DNA of 64,000 bases. It comes from Bacteroidia bacterium (GTDB taxonomy: Bacteria; Bacteroidota; Bacteroidia; J057). A program made the translations under genes and the position numbers. The DNA lies in contig JAWPMV010000001.1 in NCBI GenBank assembly GCA_033391075.1, forward strand, positions 5,642,001 through 5,706,000, in the 5' to 3' direction. Position 1 is the stretch's first letter; every line of letters begins with the position of its first letter. The notes beneath the pieces are model-generated. The model was not told where the DNA came from and ran no database searches. It was given only the letters and a program-made list of their open reading frames with translations. Below are positions 10,282-50,562 of this stretch, piece after piece.

Positions 10282-10301
10282 TTCTCCTTCTTTTTTAGGT
10301 T

Positions 10302-10408
10302 TTCATGTAAAGATAATGCCATTTTCTTTACATGAAATAGTCTTCATGTAAAGATTTTTCGATTTTCTTTACACGAAACGGTTCTCATGTAAAGTTGCTT
10401 TGCATGAA
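10302..10408. promoter_or_regulatory. Three tandem dyads upstream of fic (candidate operator array)
   Basis: Half-sites TTCATGTAAAG / CTTTACATGAA occur as three inverted pairs: 10302-10312/10326-10336, 10343-10353/10367-10377 (one mismatch) and 10384-10394/10398-10408 (weaker). The left arms are spaced exactly 41 bp apart, close to four helical turns. The first pair ends 21 bp before the fic start at 10281. This looks like a cooperative operator, plausibly bound by the Fic winged-helix domain itself. Confidence 0.7.
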
Positions 10409-10456
10409 AGAGAATCAACACAAGATACAATTTGAGGAATTGAGCTAAGGAAACTT

Positions 10457-10643: not shown

Positions 10644-10662
10644 TGCAGAGAGTGAGGGATTC
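10644..10662. other. Candidate attachment site, left copy
   Basis: 19-bp exact copy of the tRNA-Ser 3' end found at 50544-50562, same strand orientation. It stands ~210 bp before the A/T-rich NACHT gene. Confidence 0.5.
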
Positions 10663-14866: not shown

Positions 14867-14981
14867 GAAAGAAATTTAGACAAGGTGTTTTAAATTCTGT
14901 AAATCCTATTTCCTTAAAAAATGGTTCCTCCCAAAACCTCTGCCTACTATAATATAAAGGACTTTTGAGAAAAATTCATTT

Positions 14982-16715: not shown

Positions 16716-16725
16716 TATTGACTAA

Positions 16726-17451: not shown

Positions 17452-17504
17452 CGGGAATTATTGGAAGCCATTAAGAAATCATATATGATATGAGTATTCT
17501 TTAT

Positions 17505-21332: not shown

Positions 21333-21445
21333 ATGATTAATGAACTGGCCGCTTTAGATAGTTATTTTACAATTCATTTTATTGACTGATTGTGGGATTA
21401 GCATTAATACTCGAATAATTATGTTTAAACCCCATACTTTGGAAT

Positions 21446-21503
21446 GCTCGCCCATCAGCAAGCCAATCAATCGCTCATTTTTCGCAATAATCCATTCACA
21501 ACC
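21446..21503 (-). pseudogene. Fragment of the XRE regulator (C-terminal end)
   Basis: Minus-strand translation gives GCEWIIAKNERLIGLLMGE, matching the C-terminal DCERIIAEKERLIGVLMGE of the HTH protein at 25704-26030. Only about 19 codons survive. Its position upstream of Roco gene 1 mirrors that of the intact HTH upstream of Roco gene 2, so it marks an old duplication of an HTH-Roco module. Nothing else is seen in 21333-21587. Confidence 0.7.
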
Positions 21504-21587
21504 TAAACCTACTTATCCAGCCTTTAGGTAATTTAGTCCTTCTTCCCTTATACCTGATTTTTTGACCTAAATACCTAGAAAAACACT

Positions 21588-22877
21588 CTAATTCATTCTA
21601 ACTCCATTTTTTAAAAGAATTGGTAATTCCTCTTCAATCATTCCTTCAACTTTCAAGCTTCCTACCGCATATTCGAATGAAAACTCTATATCTTTTCCAG
21701 CCCCTAAAGAATCATAAAAGGCTGTCGAAAAAGTAGAGGAATATTCTTCTTGAAGAGGAACCTGAAGGGCAATTACGTAGGGTACAATTTGTAATATTGC
21801 TTTCGTTTGCTTGCTCAAGTAATTTATGTTAAAAATTATACATTCAAGGTTCTCGGTTGCAGTATTTATCAAGTCTTTTAAGGCCTGATCCGGAACTACC
21901 CTACTGATTCCTAAGTTATTCTCAATTGTCAATCCCTCAAAAGTTGATTCTGAACCTTGGCAAAAGTGAAGAATTTGAGGATTATTATCTAGTAAAATCC
22001 TTCTGAGATCTTTAATCTTAGCGATATGCTTATGTACAAAACTATATGTATCTCTTTCCTTTGCTAGTTTTAGGCTTTCTTGTATTTCCCTTAACTCTCT
22101 TCCGAATTGCATATTCGCATATGACAGAAATAGAATTTGTGAGGTATTAATTTGTGGGAGGTCAATCAAGTATCTATTCATTGCCAGCATGATGGAATCA
22201 TTATGTCGATTTTCGATGATACACCTTATTAATAAGTCTCTAAAACCGTCATGCGTTACAAGGAAACTTCTGCTCAGGGTTGAAAAAGAAGATTCCGCTC
22301 TTTTTCGGAATAAATCTAGTGGAGCAGTTACTGGGTTGAGGGTAGGATATAATCCTTTAAATTCATCTAGAAATTGGGCAGCCTCCTTATATAACTCCTT
22401 ATATAATTTTTGCTCAAATAATCTTTTGATCCGAAATACTTTAAGCCTAGAATTCAGTTCATAATAAAGTGTTGTAGAATTAAATTTATCTATAATTAAG
22501 AGTTCAAAATTTCGGACAACATTACTTATTAAATGATCCTGAGTTTCTTTGAAAGAAATCAATAGTAATTCTGTATCAAGACTACTGAAAGTTTCTAGAA
22601 TACGTGTTATCCCCAATTTATAAAAGCTTAAAACGCTATTTTGATCAAAACAAAGTATAACTATCTCAGTATCAGAAATAGTTTCTATCAATAGATCTAT
22701 AGCTTGATTATCTATTCTGCTTTTATCAAAAATAGAGAAATCTATATTTCCCCAATATTCCTCTAATCTCAATTTTGCACTATTCAGACAGTTATAAGAA
22801 ATCAGATCTATCTTGTTTTCTTCAAATAAGGGAATGAACAAGCACTTGACATTTTCCTTTTTAGTAATCAAGCTCAT
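21588..22877 (-). CDS. Degenerate CHAT-domain protein coupled to Roco gene 2
   Basis: 429 residues. The ATG at 22877 overlaps the TGA of the upstream Roco gene as ATGA, so the two are translationally coupled; a TTG at 22901 is a less likely start. Residues 1-~240 have no domain I recognise (alternating beta/alpha, IVILCFDQNSVLSFYK). Residues ~242-425 align with the CHAT domain of Roco gene 1 (RELREIQESLKLAKERD; AFYDSLGAGKDIEFSF). Both catalytic positions are lost: HFCQGS replaces HFSGHG (Gly308 for His), and FNINYL replaces LNACYS (Asn352 for Cys). The fold is kept across ~185 residues without stops, which suggests it is retained for binding rather than proteolysis. Confidence 0.75.
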   Translation of the reverse strand: MSLITKKENVKCLFIPLFEENKIDLISYNCLNSAKLRLEEYWGNIDFSIFDKSRIDNQAIDLLIETISDTEIVILCFDQNSVLSFYKLGITRILETFSSLDTELLLISFKETQDHLISNVVRNFELLIIDKFNSTTLYYELNSRLKVFRIKRLFEQKLYKELYKEAAQFLDEFKGLYPTLNPVTAPLDLFRKRAESSFSTLSRSFLVTHDGFRDLLIRCIIENRHNDSIMLAMNRYLIDLPQINTSQILFLSYANMQFGRELREIQESLKLAKERDTYSFVHKHIAKIKDLRRILLDNNPQILHFCQGSESTFEGLTIENNLGISRVVPDQALKDLINTATENLECIIFNINYLSKQTKAILQIVPYVIALQVPLQEEYSSTFSTAFYDSLGAGKDIEFSFEYAVGSLKVEGMIEEELPILLKNGVRMN

Positions 22878-25582
22878 TTCAGTAAAATACTTTTTGTCCA
22901 ATTAGCAATTTGATCCAAAGTAACCTCTAAGTTATTTGGAGAATATTTGAAATAGGTACTGAGGTCCAGGCTATGTATCCAATTAGCATCTTCAATCACT
23001 ATTGGGATCAGTGTTGTTTTTGTTTCCTGACAAATGCTAAACGTTTTCATTGTCAAAGGATTAGGGATAGAGAAATCCGCGATCACATAATTTGATCTAT
23101 TTATGCGATTCTTAAGGTCTGGTATTATTTCATTATCATAGAAAAATATTTCTACCCCATTATCTACAAAGTATTGGCTTATCAACTCCTTTTTTTGAAA
23201 AATAGAAGAACTCTCAGGTAAAATGAAAAGTCCTTCATTAGATTTGTACTCTTTCTCTTGGAAGGATTTACTATATAGAGGTTCCTTCGGCGGCGGCATG
23301 ATTTCATTAAACGAAGAACCTCCTACTCCATCTAATAAGTCTTTTACCAGGAACTTTCGTCTTAGCTCTGGAGCAAAATAATCTTTCATCCCCATTTCTT
23401 CATAAATTAGAAGGCTTTTATAGTCTACAACTTCCTTGGAGTATTTATCTAGTGGAATCATTGCTTTAACACCAATGTCTACATAAGTCCTATGGATCAA
23501 GTCAAATTGTCCCCTGATAAAAGACAGCAAATCTCTTTTATATCCATCACCATGTACCTCAATAAAGATTTTGCGTTCTGTTAAATCTGCTTTAATAAGA
23601 GATTTACATCCATCCTTCTGAATAATAGCCCCATATCTCCAATAATTATTCTCATTTATGAGTGAGTGAACCTTAACAATAAATCTAGACATTATTGCTG
23701 GAGGCAGAACATTATAATGGTATTGGAATCTTAAAATATCACTATTATGGTTATCCCATTCGATTTTTGGTCGATCTTTAGCAAAACCACTGGGAACGTA
23801 ATATGTCTTGGGCTTATCAGGAATCTGATAACAAAGCTCAAATTTAAGCATCATCCCAATAATGAATTGTCTCTCTCTAATGGTAGGGTATTTGTAATTA
23901 TCAAGAATCAAATCAATTTCTTGGTCTGTTATGACCCCTCTATTAGCAATTAAAGCATATGAATTAATGATTTTGTAAACTCCATGGGTGATCCATTCTG
24001 GATTAATTACATAGGTGTCACTAAGTATTTTATCTTCTGTAAAATTCAATACGATACCAAGATCATGTAAAAGGTCTACCAAAACCTGCCTGCTCCTATC
24101 ATTTAGCTCTGGAGCTATACGCATTGTTAAATTCTCATACTCAGAATAGCTTATATAATCTTTATTTATTGAAACCACTTTTTCTTTTATTGCTAAATAG
24201 CTCTCTGGAATATGATCATCAAGGTGAGGCAAATTCCTGAGCCCTTTGATGATATTTTCTTTTAATGATTCTATACCAAAATTCGCTACGCAAGAAGTTT
24301 CTACAATTTCAATTACATTAGGATATTTCTCTAGAAGACTTGCTTTTCCTATATCCATAGGATGTGTCTCACATTTATTTATAGCAATTATGATAGGAAC
24401 AGATCCAGCGTATGATCCTATCAATTTCAACCAATATTCAAGTTCAGAATCTCCATATGAATCTTCTATCCTGGGGTTGATTACCAAAACGTAAACAGAT
24501 CTTGAGGTCATAAAGAATCTATGCGTTGCATGCATAATTTCTTGACCACCAAAATCCCAAATATGAGCAACTATTTCAGTGTCATTAACCCTTATTCGCC
24601 AATCATTTATAGCTATACCATCGGTTTTTACTTCATCCGAATTGTACAAACCTTGCGTCAACATTTTGATCAAAGACGTTTTTCCAACAAATCCTGATCC
24701 AAGAAAAATTAGCTTTGCTTCTTTAAGAGAGTAATTGTTCTGAGGAATTTTTTCTACATTCTTTAAATCATTAATGAATTGAATAATTTCAAGAGGCTCT
24801 CTTTTGTATAGCTGATCCGGAATATTAAATTGGTTCCCCTTTAAGTTTAACCCTAATTTTCTGTCATCATATCTCTTATTCGTCTGAAGGTTTGATAAGC
24901 TCAAAAATTCCTCAGGCAAATCACTTAAATTATTCCCCTTTAAGTCTAGGCGTTCCAAGTACTTTAATTTTGCCAATTCCTTTGGAACAGATAATAACCT
25001 ATTATCTCTTAGGTAAAGCTTCTGTAGGTTTTTTAAGTTTCCTATTTCTTCAGGTAGAGCTACAAGTTGATTATCGCTTAAAATCAACTTCTCAAGCTTA
25101 TCAAGATTAGTTAACCCTAAAGGGATTTCTTTTAACCTATTCCCTTTTAAATTTAAATTCTTTATTGTTGATAAATTTTCAATTTTATGCGAAATCCTAT
25201 CAATATAGTTGTTAAATAAATCAAGCAGTTCCAGATTGCTAAAATCAGAAATATAATCAGGTATTATCTCAATTAAATTTTTCCGGGCATAAAATTCTTT
25301 AAGATTTTTCAAGCCTGTTATCTGTTTGGGAATATTTTCAAATTTATTGGAGCTTAAGTGTAGAGTCTTAAGACATTTTAGTGAGCCTATTTCTTCTGGG
25401 AGAGAGCTAAGCTCATTCCATGCTAGATGAAGAAGTTCTAAATTTGGAAGATCACCTATTATCTTAGGTAATTTAGTCAGCTTTAGACCCGTTAAATCTA
25501 ACTGTTTAGAGTCCTTATCAATTGCTTCCTCAATCCTTAAAACTGCCTGCTCAAAAGGATCAAGGTTGATATCAACATTCAT
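22874..25582 (-). CDS. LRR-Roc-COR (Roco) GTPase with C-terminal TIR-like domain
   Basis: 902-residue Roco protein, second of the pair. About nine LRRs (28-250) are followed by Roc: GSGFVGKT 295-302, DFGGQE 343-348 and NKCE; then COR (~430-755). The last ~120 residues (785-902) form an alpha/beta domain with NYVIADFSIPNP and TTLIPIVIED, which recall TIR or nucleoside-deoxyribosyltransferase-like Rossmannoid effector domains. I do not see a clear catalytic Glu, so this is tentative. The Roc-COR part is close to that of Roco gene 1 (WDFGGQEIMHATH, EYWLKLI.SYAG in both). It is the first gene of a two-gene unit with the CHAT-like protein. A perfect 24-bp palindrome lies 45 bp upstream of its ATG. 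Confidence 0.85.
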   Translation of the reverse strand: MNVDINLDPFEQAVLRIEEAIDKDSKQLDLTGLKLTKLPKIIGDLPNLELLHLAWNELSSLPEEIGSLKCLKTLHLSSNKFENIPKQITGLKNLKEFYARKNLIEIIPDYISDFSNLELLDLFNNYIDRISHKIENLSTIKNLNLKGNRLKEIPLGLTNLDKLEKLILSDNQLVALPEEIGNLKNLQKLYLRDNRLLSVPKELAKLKYLERLDLKGNNLSDLPEEFLSLSNLQTNKRYDDRKLGLNLKGNQFNIPDQLYKREPLEIIQFINDLKNVEKIPQNNYSLKEAKLIFLGSGFVGKTSLIKMLTQGLYNSDEVKTDGIAINDWRIRVNDTEIVAHIWDFGGQEIMHATHRFFMTSRSVYVLVINPRIEDSYGDSELEYWLKLIGSYAGSVPIIIAINKCETHPMDIGKASLLEKYPNVIEIVETSCVANFGIESLKENIIKGLRNLPHLDDHIPESYLAIKEKVVSINKDYISYSEYENLTMRIAPELNDRSRQVLVDLLHDLGIVLNFTEDKILSDTYVINPEWITHGVYKIINSYALIANRGVITDQEIDLILDNYKYPTIRERQFIIGMMLKFELCYQIPDKPKTYYVPSGFAKDRPKIEWDNHNSDILRFQYHYNVLPPAIMSRFIVKVHSLINENNYWRYGAIIQKDGCKSLIKADLTERKIFIEVHGDGYKRDLLSFIRGQFDLIHRTYVDIGVKAMIPLDKYSKEVVDYKSLLIYEEMGMKDYFAPELRRKFLVKDLLDGVGGSSFNEIMPPPKEPLYSKSFQEKEYKSNEGLFILPESSSIFQKKELISQYFVDNGVEIFFYDNEIIPDLKNRINRSNYVIADFSIPNPLTMKTFSICQETKTTLIPIVIEDANWIHSLDLSTYFKYSPNNLEVTLDQIANWTKSILLK

Positions 25583-25626
25583 ATTACGAATTTGGAAAAG
25601 TTGTGAACTAGTAATTTAGTATTTCT

Positions 25627-25650
25627 TCTGAAATGAATATTCATTTCAGA
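25627..25650. promoter_or_regulatory. Perfect 24-bp palindrome upstream of Roco gene 2
   Basis: Half-site TCTGAAATGAAT followed directly by its exact reverse complement. It lies 45-68 bp upstream of the Roco ATG (25582) and downstream of the HTH stop (25704). Candidate operator, or alternatively an HTH-gene terminator stem; there is no U-run, so operator is favoured. Confidence 0.65.
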
Positions 25651-25703
25651 GAAATAAAAAAGGACAAAGGGCCAAAATATTTATAGTTTTTGTAATAGGC
25701 TGG

Positions 25704-26030
25704 TTAACCACTATTTTCCCCCATCAAAACCCCAATCAGCCTCTCCTTCTCCGCAATAATCCTTTCACAATCCTCAACCCGCTTCTCCAGTCCCTGGATA
25801 ATCAGATCCTTCTTCCCAACTACCTCCTTCACCTCGAAAAAATAAGCAGGCTCCACCTCAAAGGCCGTAATCACCGCCTGGATCTTACTAGCCTTCCAGT
25901 CGGGATTATCCAACAGCTTAGTAATATGCTGTTTAGTTGTTCCCAATACTTCCGCCAACCTAGTTTGGGTAATATTTTTTTTTGAGAGTAATTCTCTCAC
26001 TTTCAGACCGATGTGTTGTTTGTAGTCCAT
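25704..26030 (-). CDS. XRE-type HTH regulator with C-terminal coiled coil
   Basis: 108 residues. Residues ~7-65 form a Cro/C1-type helix-turn-helix (ITQTRLAEVLGTTKQHITKLLDN). Residues ~75-105 form a charged coiled coil (LEKRVEDCERIIAEKERLIG), probably for dimerisation. It is divergent from the small gene at 26350. Both promoters carry the same 13-mer GTAATAAAAATAT in opposite orientation, so it probably represses itself and the divergent element genes. It lies upstream of Roco gene 2 in the same direction (121-bp gap); a fragment of a second copy sits upstream of Roco gene 1. Confidence 0.85.
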   Translation of the reverse strand: MDYKQHIGLKVRELLSKKNITQTRLAEVLGTTKQHITKLLDNPDWKASKIQAVITAFEVEPAYFFEVKEVVGKKDLIIQGLEKRVEDCERIIAEKERLIGVLMGENSG

Positions 26031-26051
26031 GGATGTATATCTGAATTTTGG

Positions 26052-26075
26052 ATAGTAACATATTTTTATTACTAT
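26052..26075. promoter_or_regulatory. Operator-like dyad in the HTH promoter
   Basis: Inverted repeat ATAGTAA / TTACTAT with 10-nt spacer, 22 bp upstream of the HTH ATG (26030). It contains the 13-mer GTAATAAAAATAT (minus strand, 26060-26072) that recurs at 26308-26320. Confidence 0.6.
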
Positions 26076-26166
26076 TGTGTTCTGTAATTATTTAGAATCT
26101 ATGACGATTATTTGGTCGACACTTTCTTTTTGCTTTTGTCTTGGAAGAAATTCCTTTAATGTCTTT

Positions 26167-26265
26167 CCAACTTTTTCTCTCAAAAGTTGGGCAAAAAGTC
26201 GAAACGAATTAACCAAGGCCAAATGCACATATCCATCCCCGTCGCATTCGTTTCATCCCCAGCGC
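26167..26265 (-). repeat. Two-hairpin structured repeat, copy 1
   Basis: Minus-strand element. GTGCGCTGG lead, outer arms GAAACGAAT (26201-26209) and ATTCGTTTC (26246-26254) around a loop containing GGCCTTGGTT, then a CTTTTTGC linker and second hairpin CCAACTTTT/AAAAGTTGG (26167-26190). One of five such elements in the window. With the two dyads it fills most of the 26031-26349 gap. Confidence 0.75.
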
Positions 26266-26307
26266 ACTTTCTTTGTTTCTTTTACTCATCTTCGATTTTA
26301 AGTTTCT

Positions 26308-26332
26308 GTAATAAAAATATACTACAAGTATA
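26308..26332. promoter_or_regulatory. Operator-like dyad upstream of the 26350 gene
   Basis: GTAATAAAAATAT (26308-26320), shared with the HTH promoter, overlaps a perfect dyad TATACT-aca-AGTATA (26318-26332). It ends 17 bp before the ATG at 26350. Confidence 0.6.
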
Positions 26333-26349
26333 CACAAAATAAGCACAAT

Positions 26350-26655
26350 ATGGACCCAATTACCCAAAAACTCATCGAATTAAACCCCAAAAGGCGTAAG
26401 TATGCCATTAGCTATTTGCTGGAGAATTATGAAAAAGGAAGTCGCGGGAAGGTTGTAGGACAGCTCATTGAGCTATGTGGAGAAGGAATGAGGTTAGCGA
26501 CCTTTCACAAAATCAGAGGGCTAAAGATTGGAGAACATGGAAGCATGCGCGGAGATCATATCCTCCTGATGATGGACTTCTTTGGTATAGAGGAACGAAA
26601 ATACTTCGAGCTCTACAATGCCCAAGATTTATCCTATACCCTTCCCCAAACCTGA
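26350..26655 (+). CDS. Small basic/helical protein of the island backbone, unknown function
   Basis: 101 residues, no signal peptide or membrane segment and no domain I recognise. The N-terminal half is helical and basic (NPKRRKYAISYLLENYEKGSRGKVVGQL). The middle (LATFHKIRGLKIGEHGSMRGDHILLMMDFFG) could be a degenerate helix-turn-helix or plasmid-type copy/replication regulator. It is divergent from the XRE gene and lies just before the structured repeat and primase-helicase, sharing the putative XRE operator. A regulatory or replication-accessory role is inferred from position only. Confidence 0.65.
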   Translation: MDPITQKLIELNPKRRKYAISYLLENYEKGSRGKVVGQLIELCGEGMRLATFHKIRGLKIGEHGSMRGDHILLMMDFFGIEERKYFELYNAQDLSYTLPQT

Positions 26656-26668
26656 TAGCCCCAAATAA

Positions 26669-26768
26669 GCGCGCTGGAGTTGAACCGAATGTGCGCGGAT
26701 GGAATTGCGGGTAGGCCTTGGTTGATTCGGTTCGATTTTTTGCTCCACTTTTTTCTAAAAAAAAGTGG
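26669..26768 (+). repeat. Two-hairpin structured repeat, copy 2
   Basis: GCGCGCTGG lead, arms GAACCGAAT (26682-26690) and ATTCGGTTC (26725-26733), GGCCTTGGTTG in the loop, GATTTTTTGC linker, second hairpin CCACTTTTTT/AAAAAAGTGG ending at 26768. It lies between the small gene and the primase-helicase; a TTG at 26718 that would extend the latter lies inside this element. Confidence 0.78.
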
Positions 26769-26834: not shown

Positions 26835-29087
26835 ATGACTAATACAAAATCCTACTGCCAGGAAAGACTAGAAGAACTCGGTATAAACCCTGAGATAAAC
26901 AAAATCCGAGTTGTCGAACCTCAATCCGGCCAAAGACGAGAAATCGCTTTCTTTGTACCTGATCATCTAAACGACGATATTCTGATACATTATGTATCTC
27001 TTCAGTCAGAACGGGAAACTTATCTAAAATCCAAAAAGGAAAGACCCTATATCGTTCGCCGCAAGAAGGTGATTGAGAAGGGCGCCAAATATATTTCCCC
27101 TGCTGGAGCCAGTACCCGGCCATTCTTTCCGAGGTCCATTATCCAGAAATATGCTTTGGGCGAAAAGATCAGAACCTTGATTATCACCGAAGGGCAGTTC
27201 AAAGCCTTCAAAGGCTGTATGCATGGCCTGGATGTGATTGGGGTTTCTGGTATACATAACCTAAAGAATGCAGCTAAGGATCGCTTGCATAAGGACCTGG
27301 GAGAGATTATTGAAAAATGCCAGGTGGAGAATGTGGTATTTCTGATTGATGCGGATTTGAAAGAAGTACATTATGCTCCAGATCCTGATGATCCAGAAGC
27401 AGAAGAGAATCGCGACCTGGCCAAGCGTCCCTATTCCTTTTGCTCTGCTGTAAACAATTTCAAAGAGCTCCTAAAGGCATTTGAGGTGGAGACCTACTTC
27501 TGCCATATTCGAGAAGAACTTTCTGTCAAAGCCAAAGGCCTGGATGATCTCCTGGTTTATCACAAAGGAAGAGAAGAACTGGTTGTTTCTGATCTATTAC
27601 TCCTCGGAAGTGCTCCTCAAAAGTATTTCAAAACCCAGCAGCTATCCAAAATGAGTTTCCCACAGTTTAAGCAGTATTTCCACATCAACAATGTGCAGGA
27701 CTTTTATACCACTTATAGCCATATTATTGGCTCAGGAATCTTCACCTGGCTTCGAGGTAAATATCAATACAAAGATACGCCCGATGGTGGTGAAGTCGAG
27801 CTCCTTCGGCATCCAGATAGCTATATGTACATCCGAGTAGGCTGCGATTATTATAAAAAGATCAATAAGCTCAACGCAGCTGGAGAACTGGAACCTCAGC
27901 TGAAGATTTGGCGGGTAGGAGAAATTCAGCGGGATTATGTCTATACCAAAGTTTGTCCCAATATCTTTTCCATGATCCCCAAATATGACTGCTTTACCAA
28001 TTATCCCGACCATAGCGAAAATTACAAGCAAATTATCAAGGCCCAGGATTCGGTGAATTACAATATATATTTCCCCCTCCCCCACACAATGCAGCCAGGT
28101 ACTTGGGAATGCATTGACAAATTCATCCACCATATCTTCGGCAAGCAGTATGAAATGGGCATGGATTATCTCAACATCCTCTACCGCTTTCCTTTGCAAA
28201 AGCAATACATCCTCTGCCTGGTCAATGAACTTCGAAATACGGGCAAAAGTACCTTTCTCTTTTTCTTGCGAATGATGTTTGGAGAGAATGTTACCATTGC
28301 CTCTTCCGATGATTTCAATGATTCCTTCAACAGCTCCTATGCTTCCAAATTGGTGGTAGGAATTGATGAGGGTTTTATTGACAAGAAGACGGTACTTGAA
28401 CGGCTCAAGTCTATGTCCACCAGCCCTAAGATCAATATGAATGCTAAGGGCCGGGACAAGCAGGAGATTGATTTCTTCGCCAAGTTTGTGCTGACCTCCA
28501 ATGATGAACGCAATTTTGTCAACATAGATCAGCAGGAAATTCGCTTTTGGGTAGTAAAGGTTCCGCAGTTCAAGGAAGAGGATCCAGACCTTATCCACAA
28601 GATGAAAGCTGAGATGCCCGCCTTTCTCTATTACCTATCCAATAGGCAAATTACTCACCCCAAGAAAAGTCGCATGTGGTTTTCTCATGAGCTTGTTGAA
28701 ACGGATGCCCTCAAGCATATCAAGCAGTCTTCCAAATCCTGGATTGAGAAATCCATCATTCATTATGTTACGAGTATGATGAAGGACTTTGGGGAAGAGC
28801 GGATTTTGCTTACCCTGAGTGATATTGTTCGATACCTCAATAAGGAGCAAGGGAATCGATATAAGGATTTTCATATTGCTCAGACCTTGAAAGAGAAGAT
28901 GAAGCTAAAGCCACTCAAGCAGCAACGTTATAAGATTCCGGTTTGGGATTTTGGAGAGTTTGCTGATATCAAAATATTTCAAAGTAAAAATGGGAGGCCT
29001 TATGAGTTCTTATCAACTGAATTTTTGAATGAAGAGGAGCTTTTGGAGGTCAAGGAAACCCAAGAACTTTTGGCAAATTCTAGGTAA
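26835..29087 (+). CDS. Primase-helicase (TOPRIM plus SF3-type helicase) of a mobile element
   Basis: 750-residue replication protein if started at ATG 26835; the upstream frame to TTG 26718 crosses the structured repeat and is rejected. N-terminal TOPRIM-like primase part: LIITEG with Glu119, and FLIDAD at 169-174. The C-terminal superfamily-3 helicase has Walker A NELRNTGKST 464-473, Walker B VVGIDEG 507-513 and the polar sensor VLTSND ~552-557. Such proteins start replication of plasmids, satellites and integrative elements. It ends ~33 bp before a GTTAC/GTAAC array with 11-bp spacing that may be its origin. Base composition is balanced, unlike the cargo on both sides, so it belongs to the element backbone. 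Confidence 0.85.
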   Translation: MTNTKSYCQERLEELGINPEINKIRVVEPQSGQRREIAFFVPDHLNDDILIHYVSLQSERETYLKSKKERPYIVRRKKVIEKGAKYISPAGASTRPFFPRSIIQKYALGEKIRTLIITEGQFKAFKGCMHGLDVIGVSGIHNLKNAAKDRLHKDLGEIIEKCQVENVVFLIDADLKEVHYAPDPDDPEAEENRDLAKRPYSFCSAVNNFKELLKAFEVETYFCHIREELSVKAKGLDDLLVYHKGREELVVSDLLLLGSAPQKYFKTQQLSKMSFPQFKQYFHINNVQDFYTTYSHIIGSGIFTWLRGKYQYKDTPDGGEVELLRHPDSYMYIRVGCDYYKKINKLNAAGELEPQLKIWRVGEIQRDYVYTKVCPNIFSMIPKYDCFTNYPDHSENYKQIIKAQDSVNYNIYFPLPHTMQPGTWECIDKFIHHIFGKQYEMGMDYLNILYRFPLQKQYILCLVNELRNTGKSTFLFFLRMMFGENVTIASSDDFNDSFNSSYASKLVVGIDEGFIDKKTVLERLKSMSTSPKINMNAKGRDKQEIDFFAKFVLTSNDERNFVNIDQQEIRFWVVKVPQFKEEDPDLIHKMKAEMPAFLYYLSNRQITHPKKSRMWFSHELVETDALKHIKQSSKSWIEKSIIHYVTSMMKDFGEERILLTLSDIVRYLNKEQGNRYKDFHIAQTLKEKMKLKPLKQQRYKIPVWDFGEFADIKIFQSKNGRPYEFLSTEFLNEEELLEVKETQELLANSR

Positions 29088-29119
29088 AATTTCTAGTGGG
29101 GAATTTTCCTGTTTAAACT

Positions 29120-29238
29120 GTTACTTGTTACATTTTATTTTTAAGTATAAGAAAGTCAAAGGATTATGTGTGTAACAAGCATGTAACCACAAGGTAACAA
29201 GAGTGTAACTGGTTACATAGGTGTTACCACCTTGTCAC
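29120..29238. repeat. Iteron-like GTAAC array with 11-bp phasing (candidate origin)
   Basis: GTAAC at 29172, 29183, 29194 and 29205, each exactly 11 bp apart. Then, in the opposite sense, GTTAC at 29212 and 29223 and GTCAC at 29234, again 11 bp apart. Two more GTTAC lie at 29120 and 29127. The array lies between the primase-helicase stop and the convergent NACHT gene. Helical phasing and position next to the replication gene suggest iterons of an origin, or an operator. Confidence 0.65.
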
Positions 29239-29328
29239 ATCTGCAAAAAGCAAAAAAACACACTGATAATCAATCACTTAATTTCACAAAAATTATTTGT
29301 AACAACAATAAAATACCAAACAGGAAGG

Positions 29329-32073
29329 TCAAGACAAGGGGTTTAACTCTGATGACCTTCTAACAAGTCTGAAGCCAACAGTTGAGCCTGTATTAGTTGG
29401 ATGGCTAAATACTCTCCTAGCACATCTGGCGGTGTCTTTTGATCCTTTATACGTACCACCTCTGAAGATCCGAGCTTCATTTTGTTTTGGAGCAATCGGA
29501 TTTTTTATCAGTTTTTTGTCCCAAGCTATATCTTTATATTCATAATAATTATCCAGACACCACTCCCAAACATTTCCAAGCATATTTGCAATCCCCAATC
29601 GATTTAAATTTGTTTCTCCAGTTTTGGGATTTATTTCATCTACGGCATAAGCTTCTTTCCTCTTGGGTTCACCAAACCAGGCATAATTTTCAAGCTTATC
29701 ACTTTCATCTCCAAAAAAATATCTCGTTCGGACTGCTTGCTGCCCCCCTCTAACCGCATACTCCCACTCTGATTCTGTAGGTAAACTGGAATTAAGAAAG
29801 AGTGAGAAATAATATGCCTCATACCAAGTTCTGCCTGCAACAGGAAGATTGTCTTTATCATCTGGGATTTCTGAATTTTTAAAAGGAAATATAGAAAACA
29901 ATCTATTTGTTACAGGGTGCTTAGAAATCTCAAAGGTATCAATATGCACCGCATGAAGAGGCACCTCATTGAAATATGTATCTTCCTGTCCCATCCAAAA
30001 TGTTCCTCCGTCAACTTTAACCCATTCTAGCTTAGAAGCCTGATCTTTTTCAAGTTTTGCTAGTCTTTCTTCTGAGTTCCCTAAATCAAACAAATCATAT
30101 ATTAATCCTCCCGGTTCTAAAGGATGTAGCTCTTCTCGTTCCAATAATTCATGTGCATGATATATCACCTCGCAGTCTTTTTCATTCAAGGTCTTTAGTA
30201 AAATATTTAAGGTCTCATGAATCAGCATTTTCTGCATAGATTCATGAATTAAAGGTAGGGATGCCTCAAGAGAATTGATTAACATTAGTTTCGCCTGATT
30301 ACCTCCCTCCAAACTGACTAGAGATCCGATTAGCTCTGCGGAAGAAATTTTGATTTCAGTGGTGGTTCTCAAAGCAAGAGGTCTATTGATATTCCAAAGT
30401 CCATTAATTAGTCTTTGAATTTCTTCTTCTGAGTCTAATAAACCCGCAAAAAGTCTGATCACCTCTTCCCAATGAGGATTTCCAGCCTGACAAATCACAA
30501 AGTCAATGTCTTTTTCCAATAAGGAAAGTGCAGTAAAATATTCCCAAAGAGATCTATGTGTAAATGTAAAACCCTCACTTGAATTCTGAATAATGCCCGT
30601 ATCTCTTTGAACCCTTTCTAAAAATTTTGAAGTTTTACCTATGATATTAGGAGTAATAATTCTTTTCCCAAAAACATTAACATGGTCTACCGGAAAGTGA
30701 GATTCCTGCCACAAAAAGAAACGCAGAGACAGGTCTTTCAAGATATTTAATGCTTCCTCAAAATTCTTTTCTTCTAATTTGCCAAACTCGGGATCATATA
30801 ATCTACCTAGCAGAAATCGAATGCAATTATGATATAGGTCACTTCTTCTTTCAATTAGAGCCGAATCACCACTTTGTTCAAAAGTGAAACAGATCATACT
30901 TAGAAGAAAAGGGTTTTCTGCCAGAGATAGGATTCGAGGTGATTTATTTAAAGTATTTATGAGTAAAGAAGCCTTTTCCTTATGATCAAAAAACCACTCA
31001 TTAATATATTTATGGATCAATTCCTTTTCAAGAGGTTTTACTCTCAAATACTCAAAATTTTGGTAATTGGCTGGATCTAAATTAATTGGCCTAGATGTAA
31101 CTATTATTCTGCACCTTGGATATTTTTTTGTCAATTTCCCAAGCTCCTCATGAAATGTATTATTAGTAGACTGATCTTCTATTTCGTCAACTCCATCTAA
31201 CAATAATACCATCGAATTACCAAGAAAAGTATCCTTTTCAGTGAAGATTTCTAAATCGCTGAACTTTTCTAGGCTCCTGTCAATAGCCCATTCAATAAAT
31301 TTGATTAATGAGCTCTTCTTTCTATTAAAATTTTTGAGCCTTATGTAAACAGGAATAATTTCTTCTTGCTTTTGAATTGATTTCTGAGATGACCGAAAAG
31401 CTAAATATCTCAGAAGAGTGGTCTTTCCACTTCCTGGCAGGCCAGAAATAAGAAAAAGCTTTTTAGAGTCATCAGATAATATATTATAGATTTCAAAAGT
31501 ATGTAAGTCTTCTCTGCTAGAAAAAAAACTTAAAGGGATGAATCCTGAATCCATACCTTTAACTCTATCATTAACCTTTATATCCTGCGATGAACTTTTC
31601 TTACCAAATAGAAATATAGTCCCAAATTCCTTGAATACTTTATGACAATATTTTAGTAAAATCTTTGATTTTCTGATATTATCATCTTCACCTGGAAATG
31701 CTTGACTTTCATTAAAATCATTATGCCTCTTAATTAATTCAGATAGTTCATCATTACTTATAATTGCTGAGACAAAACTCTTGTAGAATATTTCTACGGA
31801 TTGGAATGAAAATTTATGCTTTTCAATAAGAGTTTCACTTAACTCATAAAATTTAGGTAGCTGACTTACTTTAAACCAGTTCAATGATTCTAAATCCGCT
31901 TTTATTATCTTGATTATTCTTTTTGTCTCTCTCTTTCTTAATCCCTCTTCTTTTCTTAAATGTTTTTTCAGACACTTATAAAATGTTCTTTTGAAGCTCT
32001 GCTTCCCTTTAATTAATCTTGTAGCTCCCTTAAAACCTCGTTCTAAGATAAAATCTAAGCCAGGAATATCCAT
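29329..32073 (-). CDS. NACHT NTPase fused to FGE-sulfatase/C-type-lectin-like domain
   Basis: 914 residues. Residues 1-~200 are helical and unrecognised. NACHT follows: Walker A GLPGSGKTT 211-219, Walker B VLLLDGVDE 289-297, and IIVTSRP sensor. A helical middle runs ~330-670. The C-terminal ~681-906 is a formylglycine-generating-enzyme-like domain (VDGGTFWMG, PTESEWEYAVRGG, MLGNVWEWCLDNY, RIFRGGTYKGS, STVGFRLVRR). The paired active-site cysteines of true FGE are not both present (a single Cys in TARCARR), so it is probably a binding fold. FGE/lectin folds act as recognition modules elsewhere. It is the last gene of a six-gene operon, 35 bp after the acyltransferase. A STAND immune-type sensor is the best guess. 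Confidence 0.85.
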   Translation of the reverse strand: MDIPGLDFILERGFKGATRLIKGKQSFKRTFYKCLKKHLRKEEGLRKRETKRIIKIIKADLESLNWFKVSQLPKFYELSETLIEKHKFSFQSVEIFYKSFVSAIISNDELSELIKRHNDFNESQAFPGEDDNIRKSKILLKYCHKVFKEFGTIFLFGKKSSSQDIKVNDRVKGMDSGFIPLSFFSSREDLHTFEIYNILSDDSKKLFLISGLPGSGKTTLLRYLAFRSSQKSIQKQEEIIPVYIRLKNFNRKKSSLIKFIEWAIDRSLEKFSDLEIFTEKDTFLGNSMVLLLDGVDEIEDQSTNNTFHEELGKLTKKYPRCRIIVTSRPINLDPANYQNFEYLRVKPLEKELIHKYINEWFFDHKEKASLLINTLNKSPRILSLAENPFLLSMICFTFEQSGDSALIERRSDLYHNCIRFLLGRLYDPEFGKLEEKNFEEALNILKDLSLRFFLWQESHFPVDHVNVFGKRIITPNIIGKTSKFLERVQRDTGIIQNSSEGFTFTHRSLWEYFTALSLLEKDIDFVICQAGNPHWEEVIRLFAGLLDSEEEIQRLINGLWNINRPLALRTTTEIKISSAELIGSLVSLEGGNQAKLMLINSLEASLPLIHESMQKMLIHETLNILLKTLNEKDCEVIYHAHELLEREELHPLEPGGLIYDLFDLGNSEERLAKLEKDQASKLEWVKVDGGTFWMGQEDTYFNEVPLHAVHIDTFEISKHPVTNRLFSIFPFKNSEIPDDKDNLPVAGRTWYEAYYFSLFLNSSLPTESEWEYAVRGGQQAVRTRYFFGDESDKLENYAWFGEPKRKEAYAVDEINPKTGETNLNRLGIANMLGNVWEWCLDNYYEYKDIAWDKKLIKNPIAPKQNEARIFRGGTYKGSKDTARCARRVFSHPTNTGSTVGFRLVRRSSELNPLS

Positions 32074-32108: not shown

Positions 32109-33080
32109 CTATTTTGCTAAAGTTTGAAGAACTTTTAAGCTCTTATTCAAAACATCAAAATCATTAAAACCTTTATCCAAAGTTGGTAGAGTAAGACCTT
32201 CAACATCTTTATATCCTAGGCATTCATCTATTGATCCTAATAATAAAGGACGAGGGCTAATCTCAACGAAATTATTAATTCCCTCCTCAATTAAAGCTTC
32301 AATTCCAAATCTAAAAAGAACCGTATTCCTTATGTTAGCACTCCAATAATCCTCACCAAATCTTTCTCCGTCAAGGAATGTACCTTCTACTGTAGAAACA
32401 ATGGGTATTTCATGAGAAGAAGCCTTAATTCCTCTTAATGAAGATACTAATTCTGGGCACAAATCATCAACCAAATAGCAATGAAAGCCATAGTTAAAAC
32501 TTAATTCAATAGCGCCTATTTCTAAATCTAAAAGGTAATAATAAAAGTTTTTTATCGACTCTACTTCGCCAGAAAATACAGTTGAAGAAGGTTCATTTAC
32601 AGCACAGATTGAAACTTTCTCTTGGCCAGGATACTCCACTAATATTTTTTTTGCTTCTTCGTAAAATAACTTAGCCCATAACATTCGTCCTTTACCTGTT
32701 AACCTTTCCATTAGCCTACCTCTATGATAAATTACTTTGATTGAATCCTCGAGATTCATAACTCCTGCACAATATGCCGCTGCAACTTCACCAGTACTAT
32801 GTCCAATAACTGCAGCAGGTTCAAAGCCTTTTTTCTGTAATAAAGTAAAAAGAGCAACTTGAAATGCAAAATAGGCCGGTTGAGCTATTGCAGTATTATC
32901 GATTTTCGCATCACTTTTAGAAAGGAATAAAGTATCCTTCAAGGACCAACCACCTATTCTTTTTATCAAATACTCACACTCTTCAATAACATGTCTAAAT
33001 ACTTGTTCCTTTTTGAATAGATCCTTACCTGTTTCTGGCCAAAAGGGGCCCTGACCGGAGAATACAAATGCGGTGTTCAT
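32109..33080 (-). CDS. Stand-alone acyltransferase (malonyl/acyl-CoA:ACP transacylase family)
   Basis: 323-residue AT as in polyketide synthases or FabD. It moves an acyl group from CoA to an acyl carrier protein through a Ser-His dyad. FSGQG at 7-11; GHSTGE at 93-98 with nucleophile Ser95; His200 in YGFHCYL; and the terminal ISPRPLL. Substrate-specificity motifs are not canonical: the usual YASH/HAFH stretch reads YGFH, so malonyl specificity should not be assumed. It overlaps the ligase gene upstream by ATGA (33077-33080) and is followed by the NACHT gene. No ketosynthase is nearby, so it either serves the small ACP at 35099 in trans or a remote synthase. Confidence 0.85.
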   Translation of the reverse strand: MNTAFVFSGQGPFWPETGKDLFKKEQVFRHVIEECEYLIKRIGGWSLKDTLFLSKSDAKIDNTAIAQPAYFAFQVALFTLLQKKGFEPAAVIGHSTGEVAAAYCAGVMNLEDSIKVIYHRGRLMERLTGKGRMLWAKLFYEEAKKILVEYPGQEKVSICAVNEPSSTVFSGEVESIKNFYYYLLDLEIGAIELSFNYGFHCYLVDDLCPELVSSLRGIKASSHEIPIVSTVEGTFLDGERFGEDYWSANIRNTVLFRFGIEALIEEGINNFVEISPRPLLLGSIDECLGYKDVEGLTLPTLDKGFNDFDVLNKSLKVLQTLAK

Positions 33081-34447
33081 ATTATGTCGTTGGAGTTTCT
33101 ACTTTTTTTAAATCTCTGATTATGTAAATCCTTGGTAGTAAAGTCTATCTCCATTGGAACTTTAAAGTGGTCATCCAAATTTTCACTACAATAATTCAAG
33201 ATTATACTTCTCATATCATCCTCTTCTGATGAAGTTATTTCACTTATCAACCGAACTTTTGCACAAACAAAATTACCTATAATAGGATTTTCCTTTCCAT
33301 AAACGACTACATCAATGACACTTTCTATTTCTTGAATCAAATTCTCAACTTCTCCCGGATAGACTTTTTGTCCTCCAACATTAATTATATCTGACTTTCT
33401 TCCAAGTATTCTGATAAATTCTCCTTTCTCTTCTACTAAGTCTTGAGTATTAAACCAACCATCCTTACTAATGGGGTTTGGTGAATTTAAATACCCCACC
33501 ATAGATGATTCTGCCTTTATATGAAGAATCCCATCCACAATTTTTGTTTCAAATCCCTCTCCTCCAACTTTTAAAAATAATGAATCAGAGCTTTCAGACT
33601 TAGAGCGTAATATCCCAACCTCTGACAATCCGTAAGTCTGTTGAAGTTTTATTGAGGGAAAAACACTACGAAATTTTTGAAGAGTAAATTCCAGCATTGG
33701 CTCTGTACCATATGTAATTAACTTCAAAGATGAGAGGTCATAACTCTCATAATTCCCCCCCAAAAGAATCAAATTCATGAAGGTTGGAGATGTTGGTAGG
33801 AGTTCGACCTTATGATTCTCTATCAATTCAAGAATATAATTTGGATCTCTCTGCTCTGCTATCACTAGTGAGCCGCCGTTTGATAGACAATAAAGCATTG
33901 TATTTAATCCACCAATATGATCAAACAACAAAAACGAAACCGTTACGAACTTTCTTTTCTTTATAAAGAACTTTTTAAACAATCTGACAAAATCAAGTAA
34001 AATGACTTTCATTTCCCCAGTTGATCCAGATGAAAAGAGAATTAATCCTGGTCTTTTATCCACTTTTAAGCTAAGAATAAGGTCATTAGATAACTTATTT
34101 CTAACCTTAATTATTTCGAACTCGTCATTCGAGTCTTTTCGAAAGATTAGATCAACATAAGAAGCTTTAACTAAATATTCTATTTGATTTTCATTAATAC
34201 TTGTTATTGGAACTACAATACAATTCTTACTAATCATTGCAAAAAATAAAGCGATCGTATTAGGGGAATAGTTACTTTGTATTGCACATACAGTCCCAGC
34301 CAATACCTTACTCTCATCTAATAGATTTCGGTACTTTTTAATTGATTTAATAAGCCATCCATAATCATACTTTTTATTGCGCCAGATTATAGATGTATTA
34401 TTCCTTTCTTCGGTGAATACATCAATCAAAAATTTGATATTATCCAT
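33077..34447 (-). CDS. AMP-forming acyl ligase (ANL superfamily)
   Basis: 456-residue adenylating enzyme, short for the family (usually 500-550). It activates a carboxylic acid as acyl-AMP and loads it on CoA or, here more likely, the ACP at 35099. Visible core motifs: SSGSTG (A3) near residue 140, TYGLSE (A5) near 268, GWFNTQD (A7) near 332, and GRKSDIINVGGQKVYPGEVE (A8) around 348-367. A possible A10 lysine lies in the basic C-terminal tail. The acid substrate is unknown. Fourth gene of the operon; strongly A/T-rich. Confidence 0.86.
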   Translation of the reverse strand: MDNIKFLIDVFTEERNNTSIIWRNKKYDYGWLIKSIKKYRNLLDESKVLAGTVCAIQSNYSPNTIALFFAMISKNCIVVPITSINENQIEYLVKASYVDLIFRKDSNDEFEIIKVRNKLSNDLILSLKVDKRPGLILFSSGSTGEMKVILLDFVRLFKKFFIKKRKFVTVSFLLFDHIGGLNTMLYCLSNGGSLVIAEQRDPNYILELIENHKVELLPTSPTFMNLILLGGNYESYDLSSLKLITYGTEPMLEFTLQKFRSVFPSIKLQQTYGLSEVGILRSKSESSDSLFLKVGGEGFETKIVDGILHIKAESSMVGYLNSPNPISKDGWFNTQDLVEEKGEFIRILGRKSDIINVGGQKVYPGEVENLIQEIESVIDVVVYGKENPIIGNFVCAKVRLISEITSSEEDDMRSIILNYCSENLDDHFKVPMEIDFTTKDLHNQRFKKSRNSNDII

Positions 34448-34466
34448 TGTGGTAATTATTGAAATA

Positions 34467-35069
34467 TTATTTTGATAGAGCTTCCTTTAGTATTGCTTTC
34501 TCCCCGTGACCAGGGAGAATTGTTAAATTTCCTGGCAAACTTCTTAATAACTCAATTGAGTCTAGCATCAGTTTACTATTTCCCCAGTATTCATCTACAC
34601 TTCCAATTCCACCCTTGAATATGGTGTCTCCGGTAAATAAAATATTTCCAATCCTTATACATATACTACCTAAAGTGTGTCCAGGAGTATAAATGATTTT
34701 AATCTGTTGGTTATTTAGATGGACCGAATTCTTAATTGGATAAAAATCAATTAATGGAATCTGAGCTTCAAGATCCTTTTCAATTAAGCCAAGATAAAAA
34801 GGCAAGTGCTCTAATAATTCTTCATCTTTTTCATGTAAAAAAAATGGTGAATTTAATACCTCTTTTAGTTTTGAAGATTGCCCAACGTGATCGAAATGCC
34901 CATGAGTTGCTATAATTCCTTTTACATTTAGATCATTTTTTCTTACGAAATTAATTATCAATTCATAAGCGCTAGCTGGGTCAATTATAAAACTTCGTTT
35001 ATCATTATCATGCAAAACATAAGAATTCGTTTTAAGTCTGCCGGTTTGGAATTTTTTAACTTTTAGCAA
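34467..35069 (-). CDS. Metallo-beta-lactamase-fold hydrolase (glyoxalase II-like)
   Basis: 200 residues; binuclear metallohydrolase fold. The metal motif THGHFDH gives His56, His58, Asp60 and His61. Further ligands lie in YTPGHTLGS, FTGDTIF and LPGHG. Glyoxalase II-like members often cleave thioesters, so release or proofreading of an acyl group from the neighbouring carrier protein is plausible. It begins at a TTG (35069); no in-frame ATG lies between the preceding stop and the conserved start. Third gene of the operon, 29 bp after the ACP gene. Confidence 0.85.
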   Translation of the reverse strand: MLKVKKFQTGRLKTNSYVLHDNDKRSFIIDPASAYELIINFVRKNDLNVKGIIATHGHFDHVGQSSKLKEVLNSPFFLHEKDEELLEHLPFYLGLIEKDLEAQIPLIDFYPIKNSVHLNNQQIKIIYTPGHTLGSICIRIGNILFTGDTIFKGGIGSVDEYWGNSKLMLDSIELLRSLPGNLTILPGHGEKAILKEALSK

Positions 35070-35098
35070 AACGAAAGGAATTTCTATATGTGTTTAGA

Positions 35099-35461
35099 TT
35101 AAAAATCTTCTTCTATTAAATCACAAACAAATATTTTTAACAATTCTATCCTTAAAAATGGACTCGTCTCCTGATTTATGGCACGTTTAAATGTAGCCTT
35201 GCTAGTCAAAGAAAAGGTAGGTGCAAATTCTTTTTTAACCTTTCTATCTATTATAACAATTAAATTCACCAACCCAAGAGAATCGAGAACACCAAATTTT
35301 CCGAACAAATCTATCTGCTTTAGTAATTCAATTTTTTCAATCTTAGGTAAACCAAGCTCTTGTTCAGAAAAAATCTGCTTTTTCTTTGGCAAAAACCTCA
35401 TCAATTCAAACAACGATTCAACAATAATTTTTTCTACTATATTCCCATTATCTTTTTTCAT
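35099..35461 (-). CDS. Acyl carrier protein-like protein
   Basis: 120 residues, longer than the usual ~80. The 4'-phosphopantetheine attachment motif is GVLDSLGLVNL with Ser61, followed by the helix-II-like stretch VIIDRKVKKEF. The first ~45 residues and the last ~20 extend beyond a minimal ACP. It would carry the acyl group activated by the ligase at 33077 and transferred by the AT at 32109. It is distinct from the housekeeping acpP at 56629, which has the [10 protein letters not shown] motif. Its presence ties the operon to carrier-bound acyl chemistry. Confidence 0.75.
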   Translation of the reverse strand: MKKDNGNIVEKIIVESLFELMRFLPKKKQIFSEQELGLPKIEKIELLKQIDLFGKFGVLDSLGLVNLIVIIDRKVKKEFAPTFSLTSKATFKRAINQETSPFLRIELLKIFVCDLIEEDF

Positions 35462-49365: not shown

Positions 49366-50445
49366 CTATATCCCCGGGAACATCTCCGCCAGCCGTCCCA
49401 AATCATGCACCCCCATCTTCCGGAGATACTGGTTCACCTGATCCAGGCTATGATGCCTCAGCTGAATCTGCAGCATCTTAATCGGTACTCCAGCCTTTAC
49501 GGCTGAAACTGCTCCTGTATGCTTCCAGGAATAGAGCTTATGCCGTTTGGTATCAAAGCGCAAATTCTTCAAAATCTCCTGATGCCTTCGATTCATATAG
49601 CGAATGCCTATGCAATGCGGACCAGGTTCATAGGCATGTGAAAACAAATAATCCGTAGGAGCATATCAATGCAGCTGCAGAGCTTCTATTTCCTCCAGAA
49701 AAGCATCCGGAATCGCCACATACTGTAGCTTACGATTCTTGCTAATCTCAGCACGAATCCGAATCCGCTTTTCTTCCAGAATAATATCGTCTACCTGCAA
49801 AAGCCTAAGCTCACCAGGCCTGATAAAAGTGTAATAGATAAATTGACAGAATAACCAAAGCTGAGGATCTCTTTTAGATAGCTCATGCCTCAACTTGATC
49901 ACTTGAGCTTTGGAGAAATACAAAGCTGATTGCTTGGAGTCTGGAAAGTACTTGATGACCTCAAAAGGATTCTTTTCGACATTGGGCCAGCATTCAGAGA
50001 AAAACTCTCTAAGCGTCTGTCTATAGGCGTTGTAAGTGGTTTTAGAGAGCTCCCGCTCTTCGATGAGGTAGGTAAAAAACTTTCGGCAATGATCTTCTGA
50101 AATAGGGGATAGGCCATCAGTCCACCATTCAGAAAATACTTTAAGCTTGGAATGATAGGTCTGCCAGGTCTTTTTGGCCAGACTCTTTTTGATGGATTGG
50201 AGTCGGGCTAACATCTGTTCCGGTGGGCTGCTGCATTCCTCCTGGCTATTTTCGGAGAGTTTGTCTATGATAAGCTGAGCAGCTTGCCTTCTTTCCGCAA
50301 CTGTTGCAAAGCGATTGATGTCGCCATATCGGCGTACACGCTTTCCTTTTTCGGGATAATAGACTACAAACCATCGTTTGGAAAGGTCTCCACTTGCGTC
50401 GTAGAGTTCAGGAGATTTGAAATAAATTTTTTTATCTGATGTCAT
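49366..50445 (-). pseudogene. Tyrosine recombinase (integrase) interrupted by one in-frame TGA
   Basis: Island integrase read from ATG 50445. 259 codons lead to a TGA at 49666-49668, after which the same frame continues for 99 codons to the true end. Core-binding SAM-like domain ~85-165; catalytic Arg209 in FIRPGELRLL. Past the stop come YSWKHTGAVSAVKAG (the R/K-x-x-H-type box, typical for Bacteroidetes integrases), LRHHSLDQVNQYL with the second His, and the Tyr nucleophile. The stop removes the nucleophile, so the protein would be inactive unless read through. It is a single substitution from a sense codon, so a recent mutation or sequencing error is possible. It begins 100 bp from tRNA-Ser, the likely target. 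Confidence 0.85.
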
Positions 50446-50543
50446 ATGAAATTTAATTCTGACATCAGGGATTCCTAAAATTTGTCTCCGTATGTGTCTC
50501 CAAATCCTGTAGAAATGCCCCTGAGAGGCAAGGAAGGGAGATG

Positions 50544-50562
50544 TGCAGAGAGTGAGGGATTC
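50544..50562. other. Candidate attachment site, tRNA copy
   Basis: 19 bp at the 3' end of tRNA-Ser, identical to 10644-10662; the tRNA gene itself stays intact, as expected when an element brings a copy of the tRNA end. Confidence 0.5.

Follow-up and report, generated by a model that had tools for sequence, protein, structure and literature searches.

An iteron array beside a primase-helicase gene as the probable replication origin of a tRNA-Ser island in Bacteroidia, with a spacing that recurs in relatives and in P4

The alpha protein of P4, which carries a TOPRIM primase, a helicase and a winged-helix DNA-binding domain in one polypeptide, binds its repeats with the winged helix and then unwinds and primes the DNA (PMC4234260). 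The Rep protein of SaPI recognises, and the Cch2 protein of SCC binds, iterons found 3' of their own genes, in both cases by means of C-terminal domains (PMC7581432). A rep-ori segment of PICIs has been shown to replicate in E. coli DH5alpha in a manner dependent on both rep and ori; the compact gene order of these islands is int-rpr / xis-pri-rep-ori, and their layout, with an origin 3' of rep, two iteron sets and AT-rich DNA, was considered in 2018 to be unique to PICIs (PMC6092414).

In the present work, a cluster of short repeats from a Bacteroidia bacterium, contained in a 64-kb stretch of contig JAWPMV010000001.1 (the window), is compared with these systems. By analogy with them, the array is interpreted as the replication origin (oriV) of an integrated tRNA-Ser island, an origin that would be recognised by the adjacent primase-helicase in a P4/PICI-like manner; a probability of about 0.85 is assigned to this reading. 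The features of the locus, in window coordinates, are the following:

10644..10662, no strand: left att copy, an exact 19-bp direct repeat of the tRNA 3' end
25704..26030, minus strand: Cro/CI-type HTH protein, probable repressor, divergent from the primase unit
26055-26072 and 26308-26325: inverted-repeat arms, 89% complementary, each near-palindromic by eye
26350..26655, plus strand: 101-aa protein with no family match, upstream of the primase and in the same direction
26835..29087, plus strand: primase-helicase P0001, of 750 aa when read from ATG, with a possible alternative TTG start at 26718; predicted domains are a TOPRIM primase (residues ~2-295), an SF3 helicase (~320-610) and a C-terminal winged helix (~636-726)
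29119..29132, plus strand: left outer iteron pair, TGTTACT TGTTACA, 7 bp apart
29133..29170, no strand: AT-rich spacer, putative melting site, inside the 45-bp convergent step
29171..29210, minus strand: left inner block, four inverted iterons (29171, 29182, 29193, 29204) at exact 11-bp steps
29211..29239, plus strand: right inner block, three iterons (29211, 29222, 29233) at 11-bp steps, the last being TGTCACA
29298..29304, minus strand: lone outer iteron on the right, at a 65-bp step from the inner block
49666..50544, minus strand: tyrosine integrase beside tRNA-Ser, with an in-frame stop at 49666 (listed ORF 49666-50760)
50544..50562, no strand: right att copy, 19 bp, the 3' end of tRNA-Ser(GGA)

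The primase cassette and the array lie inside a tRNA-integrated island, as indicated by the 19-bp repeats, the integrase and a lower GC content. The tRNA-Ser(GGA) gene is located at 50545-50633, the segment between the repeats measures 39.9 kb (10644-50562) and its GC content is 0.357, compared with 0.414 and 0.431 in the flanks. The compact PICI order is not seen in this island, where the integrase is ~20 kb from the primase; moreover, PICIs are phage-inducible islands with a gene order of their own, and the window island shows no phage link. Since the integrase is interrupted, the present activity of the island is uncertain and it may no longer move. As for the cargo, it includes two Roco-type and two NACHT-type genes, and regions resembling immune-type cargo are found at 10874-25582 and 29329-32073. 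A NACHT-like protein is encoded at 10874-14866, and an AAA_21 ATPase with an HNH nuclease, matched in PADLOC by PtuA/AriA-like and HNH models, at 14982-17451; two LRR-Roc-COR proteins and one NACHT protein fused to an FGE-sulfatase domain are also present. On the minus strand at 32109-35461, the translations alone point to a cluster of an acyltransferase, an AMP-ligase, a metallo-hydrolase and a carrier protein, perhaps a small acyl or polyketide pathway.

P0001 has an intact reading frame of 750 codons, the Pfam domains DUF3854 and DUF5906, and a predicted structure with a mean pLDDT of 92. In this model, residues 2-295 match DnaG primase cores (Z 12.5-13.8), and residues ~320-726 match both the helicase region of NrS-1 (Z 25.7), which is the closest solved relative of this part (6k9c, 6lrb; profile E 2e-20), and the SaPI5 primase-helicase, similar in fold (Z 17.8). 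Predicted alone, residues 617-750 (pLDDT 92.5) show the winged-helix order of helices and strands. Their top structural neighbours are winged-helix domains (Fur, STIV F93 and MCM8 WH; Z 6.3 and below) and the realigned neighbours are mainly winged-helix proteins, all with Z <8; a Foldseek search with this domain alone gave no match at E 0.001. On the basis of the DnaG, NrS-1 and SaPI5 matches and of the C-terminal fold, the domain order of P0001 is most likely TOPRIM primase, SF3 helicase and winged helix, the combination found in P4 alpha. P4 alpha differs in its cysteine-rich N-terminus, starting with CxxC pairs; a cysteine-rich N-terminal (zinc-binding) motif is absent from the P0001 sequence. 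Furthermore, the cassette is unlike the iteron plasmids in which a Rep_3 or RepA initiator adjoins long direct repeats: the three cassette proteins do not contain a Rep_3/RepA domain, and the sites are of ~8 bp and in both orientations. Searches with P0001 found no relatives among viral contigs and one partial match, at 30%, in a phage collection. Upstream, the arms at 26055-26072 and 26308-26325 are possible operators for the HTH protein, unlike the non-palindromic iterons, and another inverted repeat of 39 nt (26182-26220 / 26714-26752, 87% complementary) flanks the 101-aa gene.

When TGTTACA is sought with up to one mismatch, the array spans 29119-29304 and comprises 10 sites in 190 bp, compared with 0.37 expected and with three in the next-densest stretch of the window. 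The successive steps are 7, 45, 11, 11, 11, 7, 11, 11 and 65 bp, a near-symmetric arrangement in which nine of the 10 sites retain the exact 7-, 11- and 45-bp steps. The first-pass annotation had located GTAAC at 29172, 29183, 29194 and 29205, GTTAC at 29212 and 29223, GTCAC at 29234 and two upstream GTTAC at 29120 and 29127, and all these coordinates are correct. The 11-bp phasing proposed there holds within each orientation, but the single grid has to be replaced by two, one per orientation, offset by 7 bp. The upstream pair exists, with a 7-bp step between its members and a 45-bp step to the first inner site; and the array does not stop at 29238, a further inverted site being found at 29298. 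It does adjoin the primase-helicase gene, as had been claimed, starting 32 bp past the P0001 stop.

The array is non-random. GTAAC-N6-GTAAC has four matches in the window against 0.02 expected, and eight in the whole genome (9.49 Mb), four of which are in the array, the backwards-read pattern giving five. The 64 kb contain no other chain in which four or more copies of one pentamer recur with a constant period of 9-22 bp, and the window, whole island included, contains only one dense TGTTACA-like cluster. The cluster score is 11.6, the maximum over 102 dinucleotide shuffles being 7.31. In addition, the spacer at 29133..29170 has an AT content of 0.79, compared with 0.65 in the surrounding 19 kb. 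The possibility that the genome contains the array twice was considered and rejected, the other four GTAAC-N6-GTAAC matches being single and the paralogous locus (L070) having a four-site cluster at null level. A hairpin origin was also discarded, the single-strand fold being unexceptional (z-score only -1.6).

P4 provides the closest comparison of sites. In its annotated record, the type I repeats of crr are found at + 4314, + 4323, - 4366, - 4384 and + 4398, and again 180 bp further on, and the six of ori include + 9353 and - 9396. All three adjacent convergent pairs (two in crr, one in ori) have a gap of 43 bp, the two sites of the same-way crr pair lie 9 bp from each other, and crr, whose word is TGTTCACC, is directly 3' of alpha. 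Both systems thus share 8-bp iterons starting with TGTT, in both orientations and 3' of the gene, as well as a same-way pair followed by a convergent gap, of 7 and 45 bp in the window and of 9 and 43 bp in P4; the rule applied, a pair at 7-10 bp plus a convergent gap of ~43-46 bp, was derived here and is not a published criterion. On the other hand, crr and ori form distinct sites in P4 and the window has a single cluster, the words differ (TGTTCACC versus TGTTACA), and the kinship of the proteins is weakly detectable, since hhalign aligns the helicase core alone (E 0.014, probability 3%). When P4 was submitted to the cluster scan, ori ranked first and crr fell outside the top three.

The remaining systems share part of this organisation. 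In PICIs and, by description, SaPIs, the origin is directly 3' of the initiator gene and two sets of short iterons surround AT-rich DNA (PMC6092414), as in the window. In SCCmec, the Cch2 helicase uses its C-terminal domain to bind short direct repeats immediately 3' of its gene; however, the putative origin has only three iterons and the primase resides on separate proteins (PMC7581432). Similarly, pRN1 has an operon of a repressor and the primase-helicase orf904 with the origin 3' of the gene, but this origin is a stem-loop without iterons (PMC4234260).

The P4 geometry is not restricted to P4 itself. P4 alpha matched 23 plasmid and nine phage records (three of the nine being P4), and 10 records besides P4 were examined. 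The array is at the 3' end of the gene or within ~1.1 kb of it in nine of the 10, and a gap of 42-47 bp is present in seven of these 10 gammaproteobacterial elements; when P4 crr and ori are counted separately, 9/11 fitted P4-type arrays have a convergent gap of this size. The words include TGTCTACC (L114), CGTCTACC (L115) and TGTTCATA (L117), the L117 array scoring 7.9 and being second in its own locus. L115, L119 and L120 are counted on one gap each (47, 43 and 43 bp), their other gaps being 33 and 56, 64, and 52 bp, respectively. No array was found by the scan in L113, and both L112 (33-bp gaps) and L118 (irregular) break the 45-bp rule, perhaps as a different geometry class.

Relatives of P0001 were collected as 16 loci from named genome contigs, together with sampled genomes. 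In the family sample, four of 13 genomes have a relative at E 0.001; at E 1e-50, relatives occur in 11 of 392 genomes phylum-wide and 25 of 396 class-wide, the own genome being counted in each case and the latter samples overlapping. A k-mer cluster scan of 51 loci, with no assumption on spacing or position, often gave the best array beside the helicase stop. Between -50 and +300 bp of this stop, and for clusters containing sites in both orientations, the score is at least 8 in 24 of 43 loci (window included), compared with four of 568 other gene ends under the same test, three of these four being the displaced arrays of L027 (twice) and L020. The eight loci dropped from the 51 in this test were L080 and L103, duplicates of L029 and L021, and the cut or partial L028, L096, L097, L098, L099 and L102.

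Because related loci are not independent, counts were also made by groups, defined by a helicase identity >60%. Forty-eight loci (the 51 minus seven, namely the same eight with L028 kept, plus four plasmid loci, window included) form 29 groups, 22 of which have an array. At least eight different iteron words are found among the array groups; the adjacent convergent gap of 42-47 bp occurs in 12 and is absent from 10. The array abuts the helicase gene in 14 of the 22 and is displaced in the others, seven times at 1.2-5.2 kb downstream and once (L082) 5.9 kb upstream. The cluster scan found no array in seven of the 29 groups, including that of the same-genome paralogue L070; two of the seven have a member (L025, L083) whose contig stops no more than 0.8 kb from the gene. 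As a separate observation, small P-loop ATPase genes are found downstream of the primase in L020, L029 and L024, and only that of L020 has packaging-type matches (terminase, Zot-like), which are weak; these matches hint that some elements of this type are unusual phages.

Motif fitting ignored spacing, with seeds and regions chosen after the scans. The 34 arrays retained are 37 minus L070, L101 and L033, whose near-gene scores are within the null; they include L093, not found near its gene by the unbiased scan, and L023, entered as a TCGAC cluster, its scan-level array being ATCTAC at +790. Over this set, the tandem steps show two peaks, at 8 bp (46 cases) and at 11 bp (52), and among the 60 pooled convergent steps 26 measure 43-46 bp. 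Twenty of the 34 arrays have adjacent convergent sites with a step of 42-47 bp, compared with a mean of 1.68 and a maximum of 7 after randomising array positions and orientations. Conservation of the spacing in relatives had been set beforehand, in the first-pass annotation, as a test by which its reading of the array could be refuted; many relatives do share the spacing, and the repeated word varies between them. The fullest form (L090, L091 and L094, and L077 with extra central sites) is symmetric: a pair at 8 bp, 44-46 bp, an inverted 11-bp block, the centre, an 11-bp block, 44-46 bp and a pair at 8 bp. Thus, the right outer arm of these four loci is a pair at 44-46 bp, and that of the window a single site at 65 bp. 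Convergent spacers of 40-49 bp have an AT content of 0.73 against 0.62, and are AT-richer in 28 of 33 cases, the reference being whole loci and not other intergenic DNA.

The words themselves are diverse. TGTTACA is found in the window, L020 and L072, with L071 and L081 close to it; TTGTAGAT in L022 and L026; TGTGGAT in L034 and L035; TTGATGAT in L030 and L031; TTGTTGA in L073, L075, L088, L089 and L091; TTGATGCA in L079 and L100; and TGTAAAA (L084), TTGTTCC (L086) and more in other loci. In 29 loci, with words aligned by hand, the distance between iteron motifs correlates with that between C-terminal domains (r 0.45) and with that between helicases (0.52); once helicase relatedness is removed, the partial r with the C-terminal domain is 0.13 (p 0.018). 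A code linking iteron and winged helix is not claimed, this value being too weak for it and L074 and L089 having alike C-terminal domains, yet the different words TTGATGA and TTGTTGA.

Four circular Bacteroides and Phocaeicola plasmid records (L104-L107) also have a related helicase followed by an array, L104 and L105 being complete circles of 15.9 and 15.0 kb. The gaps are 45 bp on both sides in three of them and 51 bp in L104. Their cluster scores of 6.6-7.8 only border on the shuffle maximum, and that of L104 is third in its record, so that these arrays were counted on position and spacing. The 16 annotated features of L104 comprise an integrase and no further replication gene, such gene tables being incomplete; this is as expected for an excised element relying on a helicase-array origin; L104 may be such an element. 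L107 (NZ_AP019725.1 96326-109378) is a region of a 124-kb plasmid of Bacteroides uniformis with integrases, the helicase, the array, a toprim gene, a MobV relaxase and the beta-lactamase MUN-1.

If the array is an origin, the predicted C-terminal winged helix of P0001 would bind the ~8-bp iterons read as TGTTACA, as in the analogous systems, and the 11-bp steps would put the bound subunits on one face of the helix. The convergent blocks ~45 bp apart would make helicase assemblies face each other across AT-rich DNA, which the SF3 helicase could then melt and unwind; the TOPRIM domain would prime, and a host polymerase would presumably finish. The near-dyad layout would permit two opposed hexamers and hence two-way replication, and the divergent HTH protein would probably keep the unit silent while integrated.

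Whether this origin still works is a separate matter, as the array could be the fossil of a former one in a stranded island, with primase and array surviving and neither excision nor replication taking place. The in-frame stop in the integrase, the incomplete right outer arm and the lack of any other recognised mobility gene among the island ORFs scanned (32109-35461 and 37070-37744 falling outside the scan) speak for such decay; the intact 750-codon primase frame and the exact steps kept by nine of the 10 sites speak against it, and complementation in trans by another integrase or a helper is conceivable. A fossil is regarded as unlikely, with a real share of doubt remaining in its favour.

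The first-pass annotation had proposed an iteron origin or a cooperative operator, with the 26350 and HTH proteins named as candidate binders. An operator for the HTH protein (25704) or the 26350 protein, serving transcription and not replication, would be suited by the 11-bp phasing, which favours cooperative binding, and one TGTTACT (26054) and two TATTACA are found at 25590-26360, around the HTH gene and the divergent promoter region. However, the array follows the 3' end of the last gene in the unit, the gene on its other side is convergent, and the likely HTH operators are the near-palindromes between the divergent genes, the iterons being non-palindromic. Arrays also follow the helicase gene in integrative elements with differing upstream genes, and in P4, and the primase-helicase has a winged-helix C-terminus of its own, as predicted, so that the two small proteins are less apt binders. 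Because the spacing recurs in relatives, and in P4 crr and ori, while the word changes, the iteron origin is strongly favoured and the operator is considered improbable.

Partition centromeres of the parC type are formed by tandem 11-bp repeats in two sets with a gap, and the 11-bp steps and two gapped sets of the window recall them. A ParR/parC-type centromere or a transfer origin (oriT) is nevertheless very improbable: the sets of the array are inverted and not direct, the proteins scanned include no recognisable partition or relaxase gene product, and in L107 the relaxase gene is downstream of the helicase, the array and the toprim gene. Finally, a transcription terminator or a chance repeat, which the position between convergent genes and the inverted repeats might suggest, is hardly credible with a fold z-score of only -1.6, a density and spacing far beyond those of shuffles, and recurrence in relatives.

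With the array taken as a replication origin, a wider proposal can be made, which is somewhat better supported than its contrary: in Bacteroidota and Pseudomonadota at least, one origin architecture (short iterons with 8- and 11-bp tandem steps, a convergent gap of ~45 bp and AT-rich DNA) would be common to P4, phage-plasmids, integrative mobilizable elements, genomic islands and phage-like elements, with a geometry imposed by the self-loading primase-helicase and a diverging word and winged helix. If so, incompatible replicons would be built on a common chassis, the layout would not be exclusive to PICIs, and candidate origins would be available for Bacteroides mobilizable elements. What is new is the layout with a numerical ruler and different words in Bacteroidota islands and mobilizable elements, and the demonstration of this ruler in P4; the same layout stands beside the primase-helicase of islands, mobilizable elements (L107, with its beta-lactamase gene) and circular plasmids of Bacteroidota. 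No description of the ruler in Bacteroidota elements or in P4 was found in searches of open-licence full texts, a scope that excludes the primary papers on the P4 and SaPI origins, and the spacing may therefore have been noted already for single elements. The ruler offers a sequence rule for finding origins and predicts compatibility groups, and the series of arrays is a natural set for working out how a winged helix reads an iteron.

Two words deserve mention apart from the geometry. The palindrome-like TGATAATCA is found at 29264-29272 of the window and also in or near the arrays of L026, L030, L092 and L093, and it occurs near five of the 43 helicase stops, compared with 19 of the 1732 tiles used as control; as the word was picked after looking, no claim is made on it. 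Furthermore, the DnaA box has the consensus TTATCCACA, and the iteron TTGTGGAT of L034 and L035 (~10245-10450) resembles one strand of this box, so that host DnaA might also bind these arrays.
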